Shown here in pieces: positions 6,013-14,562 of a DNA stretch of 64,000 nt. The stretch spans positions 124,001 through 188,000 of the forward strand of contig NZ_AUIS01000005.1 of the NCBI RefSeq assembly GCF_000423825.1, written 5' to 3'. The stretch comes from Thermithiobacillus tepidarius DSM 3134 (GTDB taxonomy: Bacteria > Pseudomonadota > Gammaproteobacteria > Acidithiobacillales > Thermithiobacillaceae). The notes under the pieces were generated by a model that worked only from the letters and a program-made list of their open reading frames with translations, searched no databases and was not told where the DNA came from. Numbering within the stretch: position 1 is the stretch's first letter; the number at the start of each line of letters is the position of its first letter. The position numbers and the translations under genes are program-made.

Positions 6013-7130
6013 GCGCCGGCCTGCGCATCGCCTTCTTCGGCTCCAGCCTCGTCTCCGCCTACTGGAACGGCGCGGCCACCTACTACCGCGGCATCATCCG
6101 CGCCCTGCACGAGCGCGGCCACCGCGTCACCTTCTACGAGCCCGACGCCTACGGCCGCCAGCAGCACCGCGACATCCCCGACCCCGGCTGGGCGCGGGTG
6201 GTGGTCTATCCCGGCGAGGGCGAGGACGGCGTGCGCCGGGCCCTGGCGGACGCGCGCGGCGCGGACCTCGTCGTCAAGGCCAGCGGCGTCGGCGTCTTCG
6301 ACGCGCTGCTGGAGGCCGCCGTGCTGGACATGCAGGGACCGGCCACCCTGGTCGCCTTCTGGGACGTGGACGCGCCCGCCACCCTCGACCGCGTGCAGCA
6401 CGATCCCGCCGACCCCTTCCGCGCCCTCATCCCGCGCTACGACCTCATCCTCACCTACGGCGGCGGCGACCCGGTGGTCAACGCCTACACCGCCCTCGAC
6501 GCGCGCCAGTGCGTGCCCGTCTACAACGCCCTCGACCCGGCCACCCACCACCCGGTGCCGCCGGACCCGCGCTTCGACGGCGACCTCGCCTTCCTCGGCA
6601 ACCGCCTGCCCGACCGCGAGGCGCGGGTGGAGGAGTTCTTCCTCAAGGCCGCCGCCGCGCTGCCGGACAAGCGCTTTCTCCTGGGCGGCAACGGCTGGGG
6701 CGACAAGCCCCTGCCGCCCAACGTCCGCTATCTCGGCCACGTCTACACCGCCGACCACAACGCCCTCAACTGCACCCCGCGCGCCGTGCTCAACATCAGC
6801 CGCGAAAGCATGGCCCGCTACGGCTTCTCGCCGGCCACCCGCGTCTTCGAAGCCGCCGGCGCCGGCGCGTGCCTCATCACCGACCACTGGGAAGGCATCG
6901 AATGCTTCCTGGAGCCCGACCGCGAGATCCTCGTGGCCCGCGACGGCGACGCAGTCGCCGAACACCTCCGCGCCCTCACCTCCGAGCGCGCCCGCGCCAT
7001 CGGCCAAGCCGCCCTGCGCCGCGTCCTCGCCGAACACACCTACGCCCACCGGGCGGCACAGGTGGAGGCGCTGCTGATGGGGAAGCGGGAGGGCAAGAGG
7101 GCGGGGGTGCTGGGGCGCAGGCTGGGCTGA
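6009..7130 (+). CDS. CgeB-like glycosyltransferase (paralogue 2)
   Basis: 373 residues. The N-terminus has the set's signature (IAFFGSSLVSAYWNGAATYY, then RGIIRALHERGHRVTFYEPD). The C-terminal sugar-nucleotide half has TRVFEAAGAGACLITDHWEG and ILVARDGDAV. The ATG overlaps the preceding TGA by 4 bp. The last about 20 residues are Lys/Gly/Arg-rich and diverge from the paralogues. This is the last gene of the left half of the glycan locus; the integron island follows directly, so a continuation of the operon may have been displaced. Confidence 0.8.
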   Translation: MSAGLRIAFFGSSLVSAYWNGAATYYRGIIRALHERGHRVTFYEPDAYGRQQHRDIPDPGWARVVVYPGEGEDGVRRALADARGADLVVKASGVGVFDALLEAAVLDMQGPATLVAFWDVDAPATLDRVQHDPADPFRALIPRYDLILTYGGGDPVVNAYTALDARQCVPVYNALDPATHHPVPPDPRFDGDLAFLGNRLPDREARVEEFFLKAAAALPDKRFLLGGNGWGDKPLPPNVRYLGHVYTADHNALNCTPRAVLNISRESMARYGFSPATRVFEAAGAGACLITDHWEGIECFLEPDREILVARDGDAVAEHLRALTSERARAIGQAALRRVLAEHTYAHRAAQVEALLMGKREGKRAGVLGRRLG

Positions 7131-7682
7131 GCCGGCGCCTGATCGAGGGGAGCAGGCAGAGCGGGCGGCGCGCGCCTGAGCTTGCCCCCGTTGGATTTCG
7201 CAATCTCAGCCCAATCTTGTCTCAACAGCCTTCCTGCCTCGCCCAGCCACCAAGCTTGCCGGCCGCCTCGCGCACAGCAGGTGGTCCAGCCAGGACAGCG
7301 ACTGCTTCAGCACCGCGCGAAAAGCCGCGCCGCCCAGCCTCGCCTTGACTTGCACTCGCCATCCCGCCGCCCCTCGTTCCAGAGGCGGCGCTTGCCATGA
7401 AACAGGATACAGCCCCCACAATCCAGCCCGACACGCCTGCTCCGTGCATGGGCTATAATGCCTGCATGGATGGGGTCCTTGGCTTGATCCAGCCGCTTTG
7501 GTTTGGGATGGCCGGTTGGCGTGACGGCAACTTTGGTGGTCTGATCCGCTTTTTCATTAGGGTGTGTAACAAAGGCGATCTGGCGATATGTGCCGGTGGG
7601 GTTAATGCGTATGGGTGTTACACGCTATGTTGGTGTAAAATAATGCACCTGTTAGGGTGGCTAATAGAAAGTTAGGGCTACT
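7131..7682. other. Gene-poor junction between glycan locus and cassette array
   Basis: 552 bp without a convincing gene. The first about 300 bp keep the high GC of the flank; after about 7440 the sequence becomes AT-richer. A perfect -10 hexamer TATAAT lies at 7454-7459 (+), but no good -35 stands at the right spacing. An 8-bp exact inverted repeat, GTGTAACA/TGTTACAC, spans about 7564-7623 and could be a degenerate attC or attI stem. Short open frames on both strands here (for example 7206-7421 minus and 7397-7675 plus) match nothing I recognise. An integron integrase would be expected in this position and is not present. Confidence 0.5.
7671..7677 (+). other. Integron core site GTTAGGG at the head of the array
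   Basis: GTTAGGG, agreeing with GTTRRRY except at the last base, stands 6 bp before the ATG of the first cassette gene. A second GTTAGGG is at 7651. In an integron, the first cassette is joined to attI at such a site, so this is either the attI crossover point or the 3' end of a lost cassette's attC. No integrase gene is nearby to decide. Confidence 0.4.
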
Positions 7683-8203
7683 ATGGAACTCCTCGGAAAC
7701 CACAAGGTGACATTCGATTTACTTCGTTCAATAGCGATCGAATGTCATGCGCTTGATGTGGCTGCGTATCACTTATTTGTTGACAGTACGCATTTGGAGG
7801 GAGTCGAAAAAACCAAAGAAATTTACGAGGAGCTTATGACGTCTCTGCTTCTCAATCTTGCCATTTCACTGCGCACGAAGTTCTATCAGGGTCTCGACCA
7901 CCGCACCACAATCCCATTTGTTTCCTACTGCGGGTTTCTTTTCAAGTACGCAAATAACCAAGAAGAAACCGTTAATTTCTCTATCAAGGATGTTTGCGAC
8001 AAGATTGTTCACGCCGATTCAGTTTCAAGGTATATGGAACCGGAGATACGACATCCAACGACATCTTTTCGCAAGATCTTCGCAGCAACTCCACGTGGGA
8101 ATTATCAATGTCAGTCAATCTGTTTACCGAGGCTGTGCTGAACTGGATACACCACACAGAGACAAACCCACCATCCATTTCGTGTTCGGAGATTGCACAA
8201 TGA
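7683..8203 (+). pseudogene. Cassette gene 1, unknown function, probably frameshifted
   Basis: The frame starting at ATG 7683 runs well (MELLGNHKVTF, then DVCDKIVHADSVSRYMEP) but its 3' end to 8141 looks unnatural. Another frame takes over from about 8060 with a natural-looking tail (STWELSMSVNLFTEAVLNWI) and stops at TGA 8201-8203, in a 4-bp overlap with the lipoprotein ATG. The simplest reading is one protein of about 170 residues broken by an indel between about 8040 and 8080. A sequencing error would give the same picture. No known domain is recognised. It sits 6 bp after a GTTAGGG core site, as cassette genes do. Confidence 0.5.
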
Positions 8204-8616
8204 AATACACCCCAGTTCTATTGCTCGGCTTGCTGCTAACCGCATGTGCTACGAGTTTCGATACTTTTGACCGCGCCTTACCAAAACTGAAGGGCCAAAA
8301 TATCAAAGTCGCAATTAATTATCTTGGCATTCCAGACCAGGAGTACGTGGTCGCAGGGAAAAAAGTGTATGTTTGGAGTACCACCGGAACCAACCCATTT
8401 CCGACCGCCGTTACGACCACGACCGACGGCACAGCGGGGAATAAACCATTCAAGGCTACATCAACAACTTACGCTTACGATCCCACCCCTCTTGGTTGCA
8501 AAGTCAAAATAGCCACTGACAACGAAATCGTAACCAACATTGAGTACGACGGAAATAATGGTCCTTGCTTCAAATATTCCGAGCGATTGAAGCCTCTTCT
8601 GGATGGGGCTAGCTAG
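8200..8616 (+). CDS. Cassette-encoded lipoprotein
   Basis: 138 residues. The N-terminus MKYTPVLLLGLLLTACATSF is a lipoprotein signal with lipobox LTAC, so the mature protein should be anchored through the cysteine. The rest contains a KVYVWSTTGTN segment, a Thr-rich stretch (TAVTTTTDGT) and a C-terminal Cys pair in PLGCKVKIA and GPCFKY that could form a disulfide. It overlaps the preceding gene by 4 bp with no attC between, so the two form one two-gene cassette ending at the attC of 8633. Function unknown. Confidence 0.75.
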   Translation: MKYTPVLLLGLLLTACATSFDTFDRALPKLKGQNIKVAINYLGIPDQEYVVAGKKVYVWSTTGTNPFPTAVTTTTDGTAGNKPFKATSTTYAYDPTPLGCKVKIATDNEIVTNIEYDGNNGPCFKYSERLKPLLDGAS

Positions 8617-8632
8617 CCGTGGTGGCAATCAG

Positions 8633-8713
8633 CCCTAACAATCGCTTCGAGAGGGACGCTCCGCCAGCAAGCTTCGCTTGCTGCCTCCGCGCCCCTCAAG
8701 CGAAACGTTAGGC
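8633..8713 (+). repeat. attC site 1
   Basis: Bounded by CCCTAAC (8633-8639) and GTTAGGC (8707-8713), fitting the attC inverse core and core. The arms TCGCTTCGAGAGGGACGC and GCGCCCCTCAAGCGA are imperfect inverted repeats, and the centre holds a small palindrome around CAAGCTTCGCTTG. Length 81 bp is normal. The near-identical left arm recurs at 10229. Confidence 0.85.
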
Positions 8714-8731
8714 TGAACACAAAGGAAACAA

Positions 8732-9298
8732 ATGAACACACGGAATCTACTTGTTCTGCCAGATGATTTGCCGGTCCCTGAAGATGATGGTGCATGCGCC
8801 CATCTGGAAGGGATGAATATGCCTACCATCGCTCTGGCAAGTACTTCAGGCGCCAAGATAAACCTTGGGCTTGAGGATGGAATATCCGTCGTTTATTTTT
8901 ACCCCATGACCGGGAGGCCGGATGCACCTCCGATGGTTGGTTGGAACGAGATCCCTGGCGCAAGAGGGTGTACGCCACAATCCTGTTCGTTTCGTGACCA
9001 TCATTCTGACCTTCTCAATATAGGGGCCAAGGTATACGGCGTCAGCTCGCAATCATCGGAAGACCAGAAAGAAGCTGTTCAGCGCCTCCATTTGCCTTTT
9101 GAGTTATTGAGCGACAGCAGCTTTGAGTTGGCAACCGCATTGAGGCTGCCTACGTTCAAATACAACTCCTTACGCCTCATCAAAAGGCTCACCCTCATTA
9201 TTAAAAACGGTTCGATACGCAAAGTGTTCTATCCAGTTTTTCCGCCAAACGAAAATGCCGCCAATGTCATCGCTTGGCTTCAGAAAAACGATGCCTAA
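8732..9298 (+). CDS. Cassette-encoded peroxiredoxin (AhpC/TSA, PrxQ-like)
   Basis: 188 residues. VVYFYPMTGRP (53-63), GARGCTPQSCSFRD with C80 and C85, and KVYGVSSQSSEDQKE identify a thioredoxin-fold peroxiredoxin. The cysteine in the TPxxC position (C85) is the likely peroxidatic residue, with C80 five residues earlier as in some Prx proteins. It would reduce hydrogen or organic peroxides in the cytoplasm with thiol reductants. The start is 19 bp after the attC core, with AAGGAA upstream. Its TAA lies inside the next attC, the usual cassette geometry. Confidence 0.85.
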   Translation: MNTRNLLVLPDDLPVPEDDGACAHLEGMNMPTIALASTSGAKINLGLEDGISVVYFYPMTGRPDAPPMVGWNEIPGARGCTPQSCSFRDHHSDLLNIGAKVYGVSSQSSEDQKEAVQRLHLPFELLSDSSFELATALRLPTFKYNSLRLIKRLTLIIKNGSIRKVFYPVFPPNENAANVIAWLQKNDA

Positions 9299-9370
9299 CA
9301 CTGCATTCCACCCGACCCACTACAGAGGGCTTAGCCCGCTTCCGTGGTCGGGTGAATTTGAACGTTAGGG
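9293..9370 (+). repeat. attC site 2
   Basis: GCCTAAC (9293-9299) and GTTAGGG (9364-9370) bound a 78-bp site. The arms CACCCGACCAC-like and GTGGTCGGGTG pair well, and the central TACAGAGGGCTTAGCCCGCT also occurs in the attC at 11120. The upstream gene's stop codon is contained in the inverse core. Confidence 0.9.
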
Positions 9371-9382
9371 CTTAAGGACATA

Positions 9383-10234
9383 ATGGCAACGTGGTTCGAA
9401 CAAAACGCAGTTGATCTGATCGGCCATGCTTTGACGGTTGTTGGAATCGTTGCTGCCGCCGTAACTGTAGTCTGGCAGCTTGGTCGCCAACATAAGAGTT
9501 CACTCATGCTCCAGCGAGATAACGCCAGAGAAGAACTGAAGCTTCGGTTGCATGAAATTCTTACCAAAAAGGTAAGAAAGTTATCGAACGCAAATGTCCA
9601 CGCGGCCATGTACGCGTACATGATTCCGTTCAACGTCGAGAATTATCAAAGGCAAATTGCACAGGGGTTGCAACCGGCCCCTATTAAGGAGCGTGCGCCG
9701 GAATTTTCACGGCTACATACAGAAGCAAACAATGCGCTTATTGAACTCATCCAGGAATTTGAGGCTTGGTCCATAGCTTTTCCTGGTATTGAGGTCTTTC
9801 AGGTAGCATTGAACGCCGCGAATCATGATGCTCGGGAAGCGTTTGTCCCATTGTTTACCGCACTCCTTCGGGTGCTGCCCATGGACCCGCCGGAAAACGC
9901 GCCACCGAACATGCCGAGACCTCTAGTGCCCGGTCCGATATCCAAGGATGAGTATGAACAGTTAAAAATATTGGTGGGGAGGTACAAGGAAGCGATGGAT
10001 GACATCGGCAGTTATGTTCATGATCTTACTATTGAGTCGCAAAACAAGCTGTTATCAGGTCTTTTCGAGCGTCGCGTACCTCTGAGGCAACCAATCGATC
10101 CGAAACTAAAAGTAATTACCACCCACCCGGAAAAGGCTGAGCAATTGTTGCGCTATTTTGAGAATGAGACACCCTGGGGGAAATCTAAACGTGACACGGA
10201 AGCTAGCGTCAAGGCAAAGCTTGGGGAGCCCTAA
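9383..10234 (+). CDS. Cassette-encoded membrane-anchored protein, unknown
   Basis: 283 residues, beginning 12 bp after the attC core. One N-terminal hydrophobic helix (about 10-32, LIGHALTVVGIVAAAVTVVW) is followed by a charged, coiled-coil-prone stretch (RDNAREELKLRLHEILTKK) and a long soluble helical region. A Pro-rich segment (DPPENAPPNMPRP) lies near residue 175. The topology suggests a short periplasmic tail and a cytoplasmic body, or the reverse. The cassette gene at 11206 has the same plan but no clear sequence match. No family recognised. Confidence 0.75.
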   Translation: MATWFEQNAVDLIGHALTVVGIVAAAVTVVWQLGRQHKSSLMLQRDNAREELKLRLHEILTKKVRKLSNANVHAAMYAYMIPFNVENYQRQIAQGLQPAPIKERAPEFSRLHTEANNALIELIQEFEAWSIAFPGIEVFQVALNAANHDAREAFVPLFTALLRVLPMDPPENAPPNMPRPLVPGPISKDEYEQLKILVGRYKEAMDDIGSYVHDLTIESQNKLLSGLFERRVPLRQPIDPKLKVITTHPEKAEQLLRYFENETPWGKSKRDTEASVKAKLGEP

Positions 10235-10287
10235 CAATCGCTTCGAGAGGGACTCGCTACGTCGGCGCTTCGTGCGAAATGCATGAA
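10229..10287 (+). repeat. attC site 3, truncated
   Basis: CCCTAACAATCGCTTCGAGA is the same left arm as attC site 1 (8633), preceded by the stop of the 9383 gene. After about 35 bp the resemblance stops and no partner GTTRRRY core follows; at 10288 a terminal-inverted-repeat element begins. The site therefore appears to have lost its right half. Confidence 0.7.
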
Positions 10288-10400
10288 ATGGGGTCAGGTC
10301 TCACATTTTACATCTTTCTGTTGTACCTACTGGACCGATCTCTACAGAAAGTGGGGACCCGGCTGGCCGCGGTGTAGGAATGTTAGACCTGACCCCACTG
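10288..10400. mobile_element. Short terminal-inverted-repeat element, copy 1
   Basis: About 113 bp with ends TGGGGTCAGGTCTCACATTT and, on the other strand, GTGGGGTCAGGTCTAACATT. The core GGGGTCAGGTCT is exact in both ends. It encodes nothing. Internal GACCCGGCTGGC is shared with the second copy at 13581. Ends of the GGGGTCAG type are common next to REP-associated tyrosine (Y1) transposase systems, so it may be moved in trans by such an enzyme; this is inference. It lies at the broken edge of attC site 3. Confidence 0.65.
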
Positions 10401-10474
10401 ACCGAAGATTGGTATAGCGCTTTTCGTGTTCGCGTCTGTCGCGTAGAGCGCGAGCATGGTTTCTGAAATTCGCT
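10401..10474 (+). pseudogene. Remnant 3' end of a lost cassette gene
   Basis: Between the repeat element and the next attC a reading frame reads TEDWYSAFRVRVCRVEREHGF and then TGA, ending just before the GCCCAAC inverse core at 10475. Position and stop placement suit the tail of a cassette gene whose body was removed when the repeat element arrived. The fragment is too short to identify. Confidence 0.4.
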
Positions 10475-10543
10475 GCCCAACCCATCATTCCAGTGGACTG
10501 CCAAAAGCTTCGCTTTTGCCGCTGCTGAACTCACATGTTGGGC
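10475..10543 (+). repeat. attC site 4
   Basis: GCCCAAC (10475-10481) and GTTGGGC (10537-10543) are exact complements, 69 bp apart end to end. A central hairpin GCCAAAAGC-TTC-GCTTTTGCC forms the variable terminal structure. It ends the cassette remnant and precedes the kinase-like gene. Confidence 0.8.
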
Positions 10544-10546
10544 GGC

Positions 10547-11113
10547 ATGGAGAGCAGATCAGTGAGCAAAATGCCTGAGATGAGGCGAGTTGCAGTTTTT
10601 GGCAATGCTGGCGGCGGCAAATCAACGCTAGCTCGGCAACTGGCCAGCATTACCCGCTTGCCGCTGCACTCACTCGACACCATCAAATACAAGCCTGGTG
10701 GCGGTGAGGTGCCTCACAACGAGTACCTTCGGATTCATTCCGAACTCATACGCGGAGACAGGTGGATCATTGACGGGTTCGGCTGCGTGCCATCCGCCTG
10801 GGAACGTTTCTCGGCTGCTGACACGTTGATCTACGTCGACCTACCTCTATTCACGCATTACGTCTGGGTGACAAAGCGTCTTGTAAAGGGTCTTGTCGTC
10901 ACGCCCGAGGGGTGGCCTGAGAATAGTCCGATATGGCGCGGCACATTGAACAGCTATCGCGTACTTCGGCTCTGTCATGAAAAATTGACACCCAAATACC
11001 GGCAGTTGGTTGCAGAGCAGACCACTCACAAGCGAGTGCATCACTTGACATCGCCTAAGGCCATGAAGACTTTTGTTCGGGCTATTACCGATGAATATTC
11101 CGGTATCCGGTGA
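10547..11113 (+). CDS. Cassette-encoded P-loop kinase-like protein (FlaR/adenylate-kinase type)
   Basis: 188 residues from ATG 10547; an alternative in-frame ATG at 10571 would begin MPEMRRVAVFG and fit the family better. The Walker A motif GNAGGGKST is followed by LPLHSLDTIKYKPG and DRWIIDGFG, the layout of small P-loop proteins annotated as DNA topology modulation (FlaR-related) or adenylate-kinase-like. DTLIYVDLPL is the likely Walker B strand. These proteins bind ATP; the true substrate is generally unproved. It begins 3 bp after an attC core and ends just before the next. Confidence 0.75.
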   Translation: MESRSVSKMPEMRRVAVFGNAGGGKSTLARQLASITRLPLHSLDTIKYKPGGGEVPHNEYLRIHSELIRGDRWIIDGFGCVPSAWERFSAADTLIYVDLPLFTHYVWVTKRLVKGLVVTPEGWPENSPIWRGTLNSYRVLRLCHEKLTPKYRQLVAEQTTHKRVHHLTSPKAMKTFVRAITDEYSGIR

Positions 11114-11119
11114 AATGAC

Positions 11120-11197
11120 GCCCAACCCTGCGCTCCAGCCGACCGGCTACAGAGGGCTTTGCCCGCTTCCGCCGTCGGCTGAGCTGGTGCGTTAGGT
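11120..11197 (+). repeat. attC site 5
   Basis: GCCCAAC (11120-11126) to GTTAGGT (11191-11197), 78 bp. The arms CAGCCGACCGGC and GCCGTCGGCTG pair, and the centre TACAGAGGGCTTTGCCCGCT is nearly identical to attC site 2, so these two cassettes probably share an origin of their recombination sites. Confidence 0.9.
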
Positions 11198-11205
11198 TTC
11201 ACAAA

Positions 11206-11787
11206 GTGGATACCGCTACCGTTGGCCTTGTCGGTGCAGTCCTTGGTGCCGCTGGTGCGCTCTCAACAGTCTTCTTAACGCATCGCTTCACACAGAAGCG
11301 AGAAGAACAGAAGTACGAGCGAGAGCGAGAACAAGAAAATGATCGCTGGTTGAGAGATCAAAGGCAGACGTGCTATCACAACGCTGTCAAATATCTAATT
11401 CGAGTGCGTGCTATTGGTGCCTACGTCAAGAACACCAAGACAGTCAAACTTCCCGAAGATGCACCGCTTAGTTGGTACGACGACATTTCTGAGGCAAATG
11501 CTTGGCTAACGTCGTTGCACTACTACTGCGGTGATGACTACCACGACGACATTGGTGAGGTGTCTACTGAATTCCTGAACCTCTCCAACTGGCTAATAGG
11601 CTTCCGCCCGACGGGCACCATTTCCAAGAAACAGTTTTTGCATATTCTTTCGTCGGACGGCAAGCTTGACTACCAAGAGTTTGTGGACCTCATGCTTCAA
11701 ATAGAAAACGTTATTTCCAATTGTGCCCGCCAGGAGTTCAAGCTTGGCCCAAGACCGGAATTTTCTTCGCTGCAAAATGAGATATAA
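11206..11787 (+). CDS. Cassette-encoded membrane-anchored coiled-coil protein, unknown
   Basis: 193 residues from GTG 11206, 8 bp after the attC core. An N-terminal transmembrane helix (about 5-25, VGLVGAVLGAAGALSTVFL) leads into a highly charged coiled-coil-like stretch (KREEQKYEREREQENDRW, about 31-48). The C-terminal part is soluble and acidic (YYCGDDYHDDIGEVS). The plan matches the 9383 cassette gene. The stop is inside or beside the next attC. No family recognised. Confidence 0.7.
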   Translation: MDTATVGLVGAVLGAAGALSTVFLTHRFTQKREEQKYEREREQENDRWLRDQRQTCYHNAVKYLIRVRAIGAYVKNTKTVKLPEDAPLSWYDDISEANAWLTSLHYYCGDDYHDDIGEVSTEFLNLSNWLIGFRPTGTISKKQFLHILSSDGKLDYQEFVDLMLQIENVISNCARQEFKLGPRPEFSSLQNEI

Positions 11788-11846
11788 CCTTACAGTCGAG
11801 TGGCCTGTGCGAAAAGCTGCACAGGCCACTCGCTTCCACGTTAGAA
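11782..11846 (+). repeat. attC site 6 (degenerate cores, long stem)
   Basis: The inverse core is degenerate (ATATAAC) and the core is GTTAGAA (11840-11846). Between them GAGTGGCCTGTGC and GCACAGGCCACTC form an exact 13-bp stem. The site separates two + strand genes as the others do. Confidence 0.7.
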
Positions 11847-11850
11847 CTTC

Positions 11851-12558
11851 ATGACACAGAATGGCTTCGTAAAAGTAAGCTTTGGCAAGGCAGAGTTATC
11901 CGCCTTTAAAAGTGCCGTCTTACGGAACAGGCCTTACCAGGAGCGCGTCAGTATCGCCCTGGCGATTCGTCTGGCCAATGCCTCCGCTGAAAACATTGAT
12001 GTCTTCTCCGTCTTAGATGAGCTCGACTATCTGGAGGGCATCAAGTCGTCATCCCGAATAAAGAAAGAGGCACAATTTCGGAAGCCACCACTTCAAGGCT
12101 TTTGGCACAAGCATTTCTTCTCAGCAAGGCACCTCATCAAGAATGTGAGCGTTCGTTGGAATCTTGAAAGCGGCAACAAGGATCTTTCAGTAATGATTGA
12201 GGACGTTGCAAACGAGTATGGAGAAGACCCGGATCTATGGCCAAACGTACTGACACATCGACTCGTAGTTGAAGGATTTGAAGATCGGGCCAGCCGTGGC
12301 TTAACTGGCGATTGGATCGTTTACGCAAAGCATGAAGAGCAGAATTTTACCTTGACCTTGCGACTCACAATGAAGGGCTTCAACCTGAGCAGTTGCTTCA
12401 AAAGCTACGAAATGGATGCCATACAGAATTCTCGTTCATCTTTGATTGAGAAGATTCTAGCTAGTCGTTCAACGGGACTGCCTTCGGCCAGCCACTTAAC
12501 TCTAACGTTATGCTCCAGGATGGGGAAATGCCGTACCAAACACGAATTGAAAATATAG
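11851..12558 (+). CDS. Cassette-encoded protein of unknown function reading through its attC
   Basis: 235 residues from ATG 11851, 4 bp after the attC core. The first about 200 residues look like a folded soluble protein (VSIALAIRLANAS, ENIDVFSVLDELDYLEG). The last about 33 residues are translated from the attC at 12454-12513 and from the start of the next gene, with which it overlaps by tens of bases, because the usual stop in the attC inverse core is absent. The native tail was probably shorter. No family recognised. Confidence 0.65.
   Translation: MTQNGFVKVSFGKAELSAFKSAVLRNRPYQERVSIALAIRLANASAENIDVFSVLDELDYLEGIKSSSRIKKEAQFRKPPLQGFWHKHFFSARHLIKNVSVRWNLESGNKDLSVMIEDVANEYGEDPDLWPNVLTHRLVVEGFEDRASRGLTGDWIVYAKHEEQNFTLTLRLTMKGFNLSSCFKSYEMDAIQNSRSSLIEKILASRSTGLPSASHLTLTLCSRMGKCRTKHELKI
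12454..12513 (+). repeat. attC site 7 (mutated inverse core)
   Basis: The right half TTAACTCTAACGTTATGC ends in core GTTATGC (12507-12513). The left half contains TCGTTCAACGGGACTGCC, a typical attC left arm, preceded by ATTCTAGC where CCTAAC would be expected. TTCGGCC forms the loop. The altered left core removes the stop that normally ends the upstream gene. Confidence 0.6.
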
Positions 12559-13061
12559 ATCTCGCGGATGTGCCATTTGCGGATGATCTTTTGGAGGCGT
12601 TCGACGAGCGATGTTTTCAAATTGTTGAGACCTTTTTGGGCTCTGTTGATTTGTCTAAAGTTCGAGGCTGTTATCACCCTGACTACGCCGGGATGACTTG
12701 GGGCCAACTAAAGCCAGTGCTGGGTTCCGTAGAGGGTGATAGGAACGATCCGAAAGTTGCGTTTCAATCTCTGAAGCGGGCCGTCGACAATGCAAAAGAC
12801 CTTCATCGAAATCCGGACTGCTACCTAGGCAAAGACGAAAAGGACCATTGGTCATTTTATGAGCTCTCTGGGGAATACTTCATAAGCTCGGGAGTGCATA
12901 GAACGGTAATCGGAAGATTCTTCTTCTGGTTGAATGGTCTGCCTCCGCTAGTTCATGGGGTCTCCGTTACACGCCTGAAGGCTGCTACCCCCAAAATGGT
13001 TGTAGAAGATGAACGTCAGCTCAGCATTGCAGAGAGGATCAAGCATGCTCTTTTTGGATAA
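12528..13061 (+). CDS. Cassette-encoded protein of unknown function
   Basis: 177 residues from ATG 12528, chosen because AGGATGGGG stands just upstream; ATG 12510, inside the attC core, is in frame and adds six residues. The sequence is soluble with aromatic-rich stretches (GCYHPDYAGMTWGQLK, HWSFYELSGEYFISSG, RFFFWLNGLPPLVHG). It ends just before the attC at 13063. No domain recognised. Confidence 0.65.
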   Translation: MPYQTRIENIDLADVPFADDLLEAFDERCFQIVETFLGSVDLSKVRGCYHPDYAGMTWGQLKPVLGSVEGDRNDPKVAFQSLKRAVDNAKDLHRNPDCYLGKDEKDHWSFYELSGEYFISSGVHRTVIGRFFFWLNGLPPLVHGVSVTRLKAATPKMVVEDERQLSIAERIKHALFG

Positions 13062-13062
13062 A

Positions 13063-13131
13063 GCATAACACTGCACTTCAGCCGACATTGGACCGCTCCG
13101 CAGCCCTCTGCCGCTGAGCTTGGCGTTGTGC
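13063..13131 (+). repeat. attC site 8
   Basis: GCATAAC (13063-13069) to GTTGTGC (13125-13131), 69 bp. CTGCACTTCAGCCGAC in the left arm resembles attC sites 2 and 5. The arms CACTTCAGC and GCTGAGCTTGG pair imperfectly. Confidence 0.75.
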
Positions 13132-13156
13132 ACCCTTTATCAGATAGGAGTCTTTT

Positions 13157-13570
13157 GTGAATGCAAAGTATTCTGGGCAGTGTCTTTGTGGGGAGATAAG
13201 CTATTCAGTTGATATTGAGCCAGTGTTTGCTGGAAATTGTCATTGCAAAGACTGTCAAAGGTCATCAGGCAGTGCATTCATTCCAGCGATGATTTTTCCT
13301 GAAAAAGATGTTGTTGTTTCAGGTGAAGTAAAATACTTCGAGTCTCAGGCAGACAGCGGAAATATGCACAAAAGAGGTTTTTGCCCGAATTGTGGCTCTC
13401 AATTGTTTGCTCGATTCAGCAATATGCCAGGAATGCTGGGTATAAAGGCTGGAACTTTAAATGACTCATCGAATTATGTTCCAAAGTTAGATTTCCATGT
13501 GGGTAGTGCTGCACCTTGGGACTTTATGAACCCAGAGCTACCTAAAAAGCAAGGGACAGCACAAGGCTAA
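13157..13570 (+). CDS. Cassette-encoded GFA/CENP-V-type zinc protein
   Basis: 137 residues from GTG 13157, with AGGAG about 9 bp upstream. CLCGEISYSV, CHCKDCQRSSGS and FCPNCGSQLF give the cysteine pattern of the GFA family: C9 and C11, C28, C30 and C33, C76 and C79. The fold binds one or two zinc ions. The family name comes from glutathione-dependent formaldehyde-activating enzyme, but most members have no proved reaction. It is the last cassette seen; no attC follows, and a repeat element begins 10 bp after the stop. Confidence 0.85.
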   Translation: MNAKYSGQCLCGEISYSVDIEPVFAGNCHCKDCQRSSGSAFIPAMIFPEKDVVVSGEVKYFESQADSGNMHKRGFCPNCGSQLFARFSNMPGMLGIKAGTLNDSSNYVPKLDFHVGSAAPWDFMNPELPKKQGTAQG

Positions 13571-13580
13571 GGAAGCGCGA

Positions 13581-13695
13581 AACAGGGTCAGGTCTAACAT
13601 TCCTACACCCTTCGGCTACATTTCCTGCGTGGCTCGACCGTCAAAAAGTTGCGACCCGGCTGGCGATGGTGCAGGAATCTGACAACTGATCCTGT
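13581..13695. mobile_element. Short terminal-inverted-repeat element, copy 2
   Basis: About 115 bp. The left end AACAGGGTCAGGTCTAACAT and the complement of the right end AACAGGATCAGTTGTCAGAT are imperfect inverted repeats continuing to CCTACACC/CCTGCACC. GACCCGGCTGGC inside is shared with copy 1 at 10288. It replaces the attC expected after the GFA cassette gene and marks the right edge of the low-GC island. Confidence 0.65.
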
Positions 13696-13749
13696 TGACG
13701 GACTGAGCCAATCCAGCCCGGCGGCCAAGGAACCTAAACAAAAACACCC

Positions 13750-14562
13750 CTACCTTACCCCCACCCCCAAGCGGGCAGGCCAGTGGATCTCCACCGGGCC
13801 TGCGCCGAATTCGCTTTCGAGCCTCGCCACGAGCTCCTTGGAGAGCGCTTCCCACTCAGCGGGAGGGAGCTTCTGCTTCAGGAGCGCCACCGGGGCGGAG
13901 CTGCGTACGTTGGACTCCCAGAAGGCGTGTATGGAGGGGTAGGCGTTGCGGTGCGCGGTGGTGTGGATCTCGACTTCGTGAAAGCCCGCGTCCGTCATTT
14001 CCAGCCGGAATTCCTCGACATCGGCCAGCGGCCCTTTCCCTGATGCGAACGGCAGGCCGGGCAGGCAGGCGCGCAGGGTGTCGAAGAGGGCGGCCATGAG
14101 CGGGACCTGATCGAGGGGCGCCCAGCTGGATACCACGGCGCGGCGGCCGGGACGCAGCACGCGCGCGAGTTCGCGGAAGCCCGCCGCCCGGTCCGGGAAG
14201 AACATCAGGCCGAACATGGAGAAGGCGGCGTCGAAGCTGGCCTCGGCAAAGGGCAGGGACTGGGCGTCGGCCTGGTGGATGTCGACATTGCCGATCCCCG
14301 CTTCGGCGGCGCGGCGGCGCAGTTGCGCCACCATGGCTTCGGCGAAGTCCACGGCGACCACGCGCTCCGCCGCCGCGGCCACCTGCAGCGACAGCGTGCC
14401 CGGACCGGCGGCCACGTCGAGCACGTGGGCCCGGGCGGGCAGCCGGCCGAGCGCGATGGCATCGCGGGCGTAAAGGGCAAAGATCGGCAGCAGATCGGCC
14501 ACGTAGCCGGCGGCGATGGTGTTCCAGGGGCCGGGCTGGGCCAGGGGGCTGGGTTGCGGCAT
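13750..14562 (-). CDS. Class I SAM-dependent methyltransferase
   Basis: 270 residues. HVLDVAAGPGTLSLQVA is motif I of a Rossmann methyltransferase; VVAVDFAEAMV follows with the acidic SAM-ribose residue, then ADAQSLPFAEASFDAAFSMFGLMFFPD and RELARVLRPGRRAVVSSW. This is the Methyltransf_11/ubiE-like layout for small molecules. The substrate is unknown. It starts 45 bp downstream of the MAPEG gene on the same strand, so the two may be co-transcribed. Base composition is back to that of the flanks. Confidence 0.85.
   Translation of the reverse strand: MPQPSPLAQPGPWNTIAAGYVADLLPIFALYARDAIALGRLPARAHVLDVAAGPGTLSLQVAAAAERVVAVDFAEAMVAQLRRRAAEAGIGNVDIHQADAQSLPFAEASFDAAFSMFGLMFFPDRAAGFRELARVLRPGRRAVVSSWAPLDQVPLMAALFDTLRACLPGLPFASGKGPLADVEEFRLEMTDAGFHEVEIHTTAHRNAYPSIHAFWESNVRSSAPVALLKQKLPPAEWEALSKELVARLESEFGAGPVEIHWPARLGVGVR

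Follow-up and report, generated by a model that had tools for sequence, protein, structure and literature searches.

The analysed window, 64,000 nucleotides of the Thermithiobacillus tepidarius DSM 3134 genome (contig NZ_AUIS01000005.1, positions 124,001 to 188,000), contains an integron cassette array in its 7.4–13.7 kb region, recognized by an attC covariance model and by cassette genes, including those of an AhpC/TSA protein and a GFA protein. Integrons are the main bacterial device for storing and shuffling captured genes. Two copies of a short hairpin-forming element, a miniature inverted-repeat transposable element (MITE) built as a dimer of terminal inverted repeats (TIRs), lie in this array, and the relation of this element and its transposase to cassette arrays is considered here. 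Six attC sites of the window were found by the attC model (E 6e-11 to 1e-6), and a seventh one is degenerate. The model was built on 21 sites, six of them from the window; it and the half-site matrices used below were trained on attCs of the same genomes as those analysed. The features are as follows:

10290–10401, + strand: copy 1, TIR-dimer MITE of about 112 bp, GGGGTCAGGTCTCACATT ... AATGTTAGACCTGACCCC ACTGA
13584–13698, + strand: copy 2, MITE of about 115 bp, same family, at the distal array end after the GFA cassette
10229–10289, + strand: lone attC left half (R''-L''), cut by copy 1 before the L'-R' half; left-half matrix 18.2 bits
13157–13570, + strand: GFA-family cassette gene without its own attC; PF04828, E 9.8e-32
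8633–8713, + strand: intact attC; attC model E 9.7e-10
9293–9370, + strand: intact attC; attC model E 6.4e-11
10475–10543, + strand: intact attC; attC model E 5.7e-11
11120–11197, + strand: intact attC; attC model E 5.8e-11
11782–11846, + strand: intact attC; attC model E 2.4e-8
12455–12513, + strand: degenerate attC; attC model E 0.049
13063–13131, + strand: intact attC; attC model E 1.3e-6
7250–7506, − strand: remnant resembling the intI 5' end and its upstream region; two blocks (70 and 132 nt) 76% identical to the intI 5' region on contig C2

A first-pass annotation, made from the nucleotide sequence, had described two related copies with GGGTCAG-type ends and a shared internal GACCCGGCTGGC; both are real, have ends able to form a hairpin and are about 75% alike (right parts 74% over 61 nt, left parts 87% over 23 nt). 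The left end of copy 2 recurs within copy 1 as a perfect reverse complement of 25 bp, and the ends of copy 1 pair with each other at 95% over 19 bp. Copy 1 folds to a long hairpin of −26.9 kcal/mol, compared with −14.1 kcal/mol for shuffled sequences (z −4.7). The same annotation had placed copy 1 where an attC loses its right half, and the half-site matrices bear this out: the lone left half at 10229, which copy 1 directly adjoins, matches the site at 8633 over 27 identical nt, its score exceeds the 99.9th percentile (15.6 bits) of 1500 random 150-bp windows, and no right half was detected between it and the next intact attC. To the right of copy 1, where the annotation had noted a gene remnant, an open frame of about 20 codons is followed by a stop. 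Copy 2, which begins 13 bp past the stop codon of the GFA gene, had been thought to stand in place of the attC of that cassette. The cassette indeed has no attC; as no convincing attC half was found within 150 bp on either side of copy 2 (best score 8.0 bits, about the 95th percentile), only the absence of the site, and not its replacement, can be stated. A search of window positions 7000–14500 against Rfam gave no match.

The array of the window probably represents a second integron of the genome that has lost its integrase, since the 7250–7506 remnant resembles the start of the genome's integrase gene. The latter lies at the end of contig C2, where the integrase gene with an in-frame stop is accompanied by an attI-like region and a cassette start cut by the end of an insertion sequence (IS). 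This integrase gene (C2:207689–208537, locus L019) is split into two matches by an in-frame TAG. Contig C31 starts with a stretch of cassette array and carries at its start the same IS end (about 20 bp), which is why contigs C2 and C31 probably join.

The genome (2.96 Mb, 43 contigs) contains six element copies, the two of the window and four on C31 (at 628, 2691, 3046 and 3958). A search of the whole genome for the conserved ends (up to two mismatches) gave ten ends, all in these copies and all in the two arrays; outside the arrays no match was found, and there was none for the reversed pattern. The Y1 (RAYT/IS200-like) transposase that the first-pass annotation had proposed to look for is present in the same genome: a gene of 288 codons (C31:4588–5454) at the distal end of the C31 array, whose product matches Pfam Y1_Tnp (PF01797) with E 1.8e-10 and 41.4 bits against a cut-off of 23. 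No other close member is encoded in the genome; the product of another Y1 gene, on contig C1, shares 30% identity with this protein. All six copies and this full-length parent thus lie within two cassette arrays, which make up about 0.4% of the genome, and are in cassette orientation. Both arrays end distally in a member of the element family (window 13584–13698 and L009:4541–5461).

The left parts of the MITEs align with the left flank and the first codons of the transposase gene in all six copies (0 of 2000 shuffles as good). The right parts align with the last codons and the right flank, in five copies at the same level (0/2000) and weakly in copy e628 (70/2000). Because both their ends align with both ends of the transposase gene, the copies are, judged by these alignments, internal-deletion derivatives (non-autonomous TIR dimers) of the full-length element. 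By its sequence, the element is assigned to a known kind, TIRYT/TIRtron, a HUH/Y1 (TnpA_REP-related) transposon. The name TIRYT was given to Y1 transposases with GGGGWSAS inverted repeats, and the corresponding loci were termed TIRtrons (Di Nocera et al. 2013, PMC3733652). According to the available text of Quentin et al. (2018, PMC6006769), most TIRYT belong to TnpA_REP subclass 2.1, with a C-terminal helix-turn-helix (HTH), and the present TIRYT probably falls in it as well. In TIRYT this HTH is of the HTH_23, HTH_28 or Bac_DnaA_C-like type. A putative C-terminal HTH of the present protein matches HTH_38 weakly (E 0.017); in relatives the matches are to HTH_28 (E 2e-4) and to HTH_23 (E 5e-5), and none of the three reaches its curated cut-off. 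Scored against NCBIfam NF047646 (REP_Tyr_transpos), the protein reaches 69.6 bits (E 2.5e-19), under the cut-off of 80; two close relatives score 64.6 and 70.1, and the protein of locus L123 scores 96.4.

The MITE copies and the elements of relatives have GGGGTCAG ends, which fit GGGGWSAS. The ends of the genome's own full-length element are decayed (GGGTTCAG on the left, GATCCTG on the right), and this TIRYT may therefore no longer be mobile. Within 70 bp upstream of 25 of 79 element ends (L118–L161), at least one extra GGGTC was observed, often as a tandem of flank plus GGGGTCAG, as in L138:1698–1785, L145 (minus strand, 7000–6920) and L154:8890–8920. Such repeats resemble stuttering at the left end, perhaps from abortive rounds of transposition. 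The copy at L009:3064–3155 carries GTCTAAC...GTTAGAC and looks attC-like by a heuristic. This candidate was set aside, because the attC model gives no match and because all six copies keep the sequence flanking the cores, which recombination there would scramble.

As in the TIRYT/TIRtron systems, the present element combines a Y1 transposase, here with a weak candidate C-terminal HTH, with inverted repeats that fit GGGGWSAS in the MITE copies and in the elements of relatives, and with dimers (PMC3733652). It differs from them, as far as the available texts of PMC3733652 and PMC6006769 describe them, in that its copies keep both gene ends and, in the genome of the window, are found only in cassette arrays. 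The inverted-repeat doublet hairpin and the related single-copy transposase are shared with REPIN/RAYT. Unlike REPIN/RAYT, the element has no GTAG foot (in none of the six aligned copies does GTAG stand before or at the start of the hairpin) and has six copies instead of hundreds, and its protein is below the NCBIfam cut-off for RAYT. A RAYT search of plasmids returned one match, 46% identical, in Legionella; the search of viral contigs returned none, and no Protein Data Bank match was obtained by sequence.

Mobile elements found at attC sites include IS1111-attC elements and group IIC-attC introns, which use attC as a specific target. The first-pass annotation had suggested such a preference here. 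Within the genome all copies do lie in integron arrays, and three of the six abut a lone attC half: copy 1 follows a left half, and a right half comes after copy 628 (13.8 bits) and after copy 3046 (16.9 bits); random 150-bp windows pass 15.6 bits for left or 11.4 bits for right halves about once per thousand. The other three (copies 2, 2691 and 3958), as well as the full-length TIRYT, have no attC half within 150 bp. Two similar cases were noticed by eye in other genomes, namely a 51-bp hairpin that follows a left attC half cut near the loop (Nitrotoga, L134) and another RAYT-like element that starts a few bases from an attC without its R' box (Sulfurimicrobium, L123). These cases could be explained by direct targeting, in which the transposase inserts into the folded single-stranded attC hairpin, kills the site and thereby stabilizes the array. 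However, in eight relatives an attC half lies within 200 bp of 4 of 78 element ends, compared with 77/2000 for windows drawn at random from these loci (56/2000 in control loci), so no excess of attC halves is seen beside the ends. Moreover, array spacers consist largely of attC, and any insertion into an array would often hit one. Direct targeting is the least supported of the alternatives and is regarded as improbable; neither attC-level targeting as a general rule nor stabilization of the array is supported, and it is fairly probable, as a part of the best explanation given below, that attC is neither a required nor a clearly preferred target. In lacking attC-level specificity in relatives and in using different enzymes, the element differs from IS1111-attC elements and group IIC-attC introns.

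The location in arrays was compared across genomes. When the species-genome collection was scanned, a related transposase was found at 40 loci. Elements were counted in the eight genomes having a full-length relative that is at least 68% identical and in the genome of the window. The search for element ends in these nine genomes gave 89 matches (2 in the control). Ends less than 400 bp apart were merged into one unit, by which the six copies of the window genome form five units. Sites of E 0.01 or better by the covariance model were taken as attC, up to 150 candidates per genome being scored; the bulge-aware attC scan gave 2 matches in 400 kb of control sequence at a threshold of 24. Of the 66 units, 10 have an attC no more than 1 kb away (0.40 expected); the count rises to 14 at 2 kb (0.67 expected) and to 19 at 5 kb (1.41 expected). 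Enrichment of the element in cassette arrays is supported by these counts. Three of the five units of the window genome, situated on C31, are not near any model-found attC, the attCs there being mostly half-sites. In four of the eight relatives (G031, G033, G034 and G037), transposase genes of the close group have an attC at a distance of 5 kb or less.

A TIGR02249 integrase is encoded in all eight genomes whose full-length TIRYT is at least 68% identical and in 2 of 31 others (39 of the 40 loci were used, as L070 lies in the genome of L068); genomes G063 and G068, which have only partial TIRYT matches (74–89%), have no such integrase. The co-occurrence is less striking than it appears, because 137 of the 369 genomes examined for the class (37%) possess one.

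Other mobile genes of the nine genomes were used for comparison, Y1 genes being divided into RAYT-like (below 60 bits to PF01797) and IS200-like (above 75 bits). Within 2 kb of attC, 9 of 46 RAYT-like genes were found (0.44 expected), together with none of 11 IS200-like genes (0.13 expected) and 2 of 43 rve-type IS (0.49 expected). Within 5 kb, the corresponding numbers are 11/46 (0.90 expected), 0/11 (0.28) and 7/43 (1.03). Enrichment at 2 kb is therefore about 20-fold for RAYT-like genes and about 4-fold for rve-type IS, at small numbers. Alternatively, arrays could serve as a passive refuge: insertion would be random, and copies would survive mainly in arrays as in dispensable DNA. The excess of the unrelated rve-type IS within 5 kb and the location of most copies of other genomes in DNA without detectable attC are in line with this explanation; the difference in fold enrichment at 2 kb and a strand bias seen in RAYT-like genes only argue against it, again at small numbers. 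It is considered a rather doubtful, although possible, account.

As to this strand bias, 10 of the 11 RAYT-like genes within 5 kb share the orientation of the nearest attC, or 11 of 12 (10 of 11 loci) with the genome's own TIRYT, the strand of which was judged by a weak attC-model match and by the cassette genes; two of the cases share a locus. In the exception (contig C91 of genome G034), a weaker attC of opposite orientation is nearest, and a strong co-oriented attC is next. The rve-type IS are co-oriented in 3 of 7 cases. For 11/12, P is 0.006 against one half and 0.038 against the IS control. Replication geometry, and not the array itself, could produce such a bias if insertion occurs into the lagging-strand template and the orientation of arrays relative to the fork is fixed. 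A lagging-strand preference is given for IS608 and ISDra2 in the available text of PMC6006769, and this explanation is considered possible but less than likely.

Co-orientation with cassettes is also shown by captured genes, and TIRYT and MITEs could accordingly be hitch-hikers in cassette bodies, spread and copied by the integron integrase and not inserted into arrays. The genome copies differ from copy 1 by about 18–30% and therefore do not descend from one recent local burst; TIRYT was not found in 30 other searched genomes of the same order and was therefore probably acquired. Both observations agree with hitch-hiking. In the Accumulibacter array (L145:4440–6240), a segment with MITE, attC and a gene part is present twice, which also fits; however, one breakpoint of the duplicated segment, as seen by eye, is at the MITE left end and not at an attC core. 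Furthermore, many near-array TIRYT genes are distal to the last recognizable attC, with none found after them. Hitch-hiking is thus assessed as less than likely.

An additional sample was drawn by integrase alone, from the 137 integrase-bearing genomes among the 369 of the class; it gave 60 array sides, of which 38 were used (nearly all excluded loci are shorter than 2500 bp, and many contigs end there). RAYT-like genes were found in L207, L248 and L249 and fragments of such genes in L232, each running in the direction of its array, and a weak Y1 gene in L242 has the opposite orientation. Two of these RAYT-like genes, those of L207 and L248, are intact and have a model-found attC within 5 kb; about 0.25 would be expected by our own reckoning from 104 Y1 matches listed in 117 Mb, 282 kb of which is within 5 kb.

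Taken together, these data make it fairly probable that the copies are miniatures of TIRYT whose insertions are received or kept in arrays far above the rest of the chromosome, attC loss being an occasional result and not the target. The miniatures derive from a full-length TIRYT by internal deletion and, as the alignments show, retain the first and last transposase codons. The transposase would move the element ends as single-stranded DNA, acting on one strand only, as IS200/IS605 relatives do. Arrays would take up and retain insertions at a far higher frequency than other parts of the chromosome, probably on account of the exposed single strands and dispensable spacers that they provide. Either the insertion or a later deletion beside the element could sometimes remove half of an attC as a by-product, and this loss would freeze the cassette concerned.

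Several results weigh against this explanation. Besides the attC-half counts in relatives given above, most units are remote from any detectable attC: the distance exceeds 5 kb for 44 of 61 units outside the window genome (47 of 66 over the nine genomes together), and genomes G032 and G036 have no unit closer than that. The first-pass annotation had named a location of most other copies in ordinary intergenic DNA, with no link to attC, as a result that would refute its reading; outside the genome of the window most copies do have such a location, and enrichment near attC still exceeds tenfold. The difference between RAYT-like genes and rve-type IS at 2 kb (9/46 and 2/43) is only marginal (P 0.051), and a part of the array effect is general, because rve-type IS are also enriched at 5 kb. 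The sample drawn by integrase alone lends the array association weak support. Transposition, an empty site or strand preference was not observed directly.

A stronger version, in which this HUH lineage uses arrays as a strand-specific landing zone, drawn by the single-stranded DNA that attC exposes, and in which MITEs cutting attC pin cassettes, seems unlikely. If true, it would mean that a transposon shapes the rate of cassette loss from an integron. Whether an array remains mobile depends on the processes by which its attC sites are lost or frozen. A recurrent link between single-stranded-DNA transposons and arrays, with a strand bias, is a testable meeting of two systems based on folded single-stranded DNA, and arrays provide a setting in which to look for TIRYT mobility, which has hardly been studied so far.

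The kind of element is known, and no earlier report of its association with integrons was found: a search of the open-access literature, exclusive of subscription papers, returned no report linking TIRYT or RAYT to integron arrays, and the word 'integron' is absent from the text of PMC6006769 and PMC3733652. The nearest case is ISHahl1 (IS200/IS605), which adjoins an integrase-less array in Halorhodospira halochloris (PMC7923331). Unlike the present element, ISHahl1 belongs to a different subfamily with tnpB and is a single case, and no miniatures in arrays are reported in the available part of that paper (PMC7923331). TnpA_REP and integron integrases are compared in the available text of PMC8266576 only as enzymes acting on folded DNA.

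Three further observations concern the arrays and integrons themselves. The cassette gene at L009:886–2682 is large and encodes a GmrSD_N (restriction endonuclease) domain; MITE copy 2691, and not an attC, comes after it. Away from both arrays, near an rve-type IS, there is a strong isolated attC (65 bits; C1:254701–254765, L200:5702–5766). In Sulfurimicrobium (L197:1–1292), a RAYT-like gene stands directly beside a truncated integron integrase gene.

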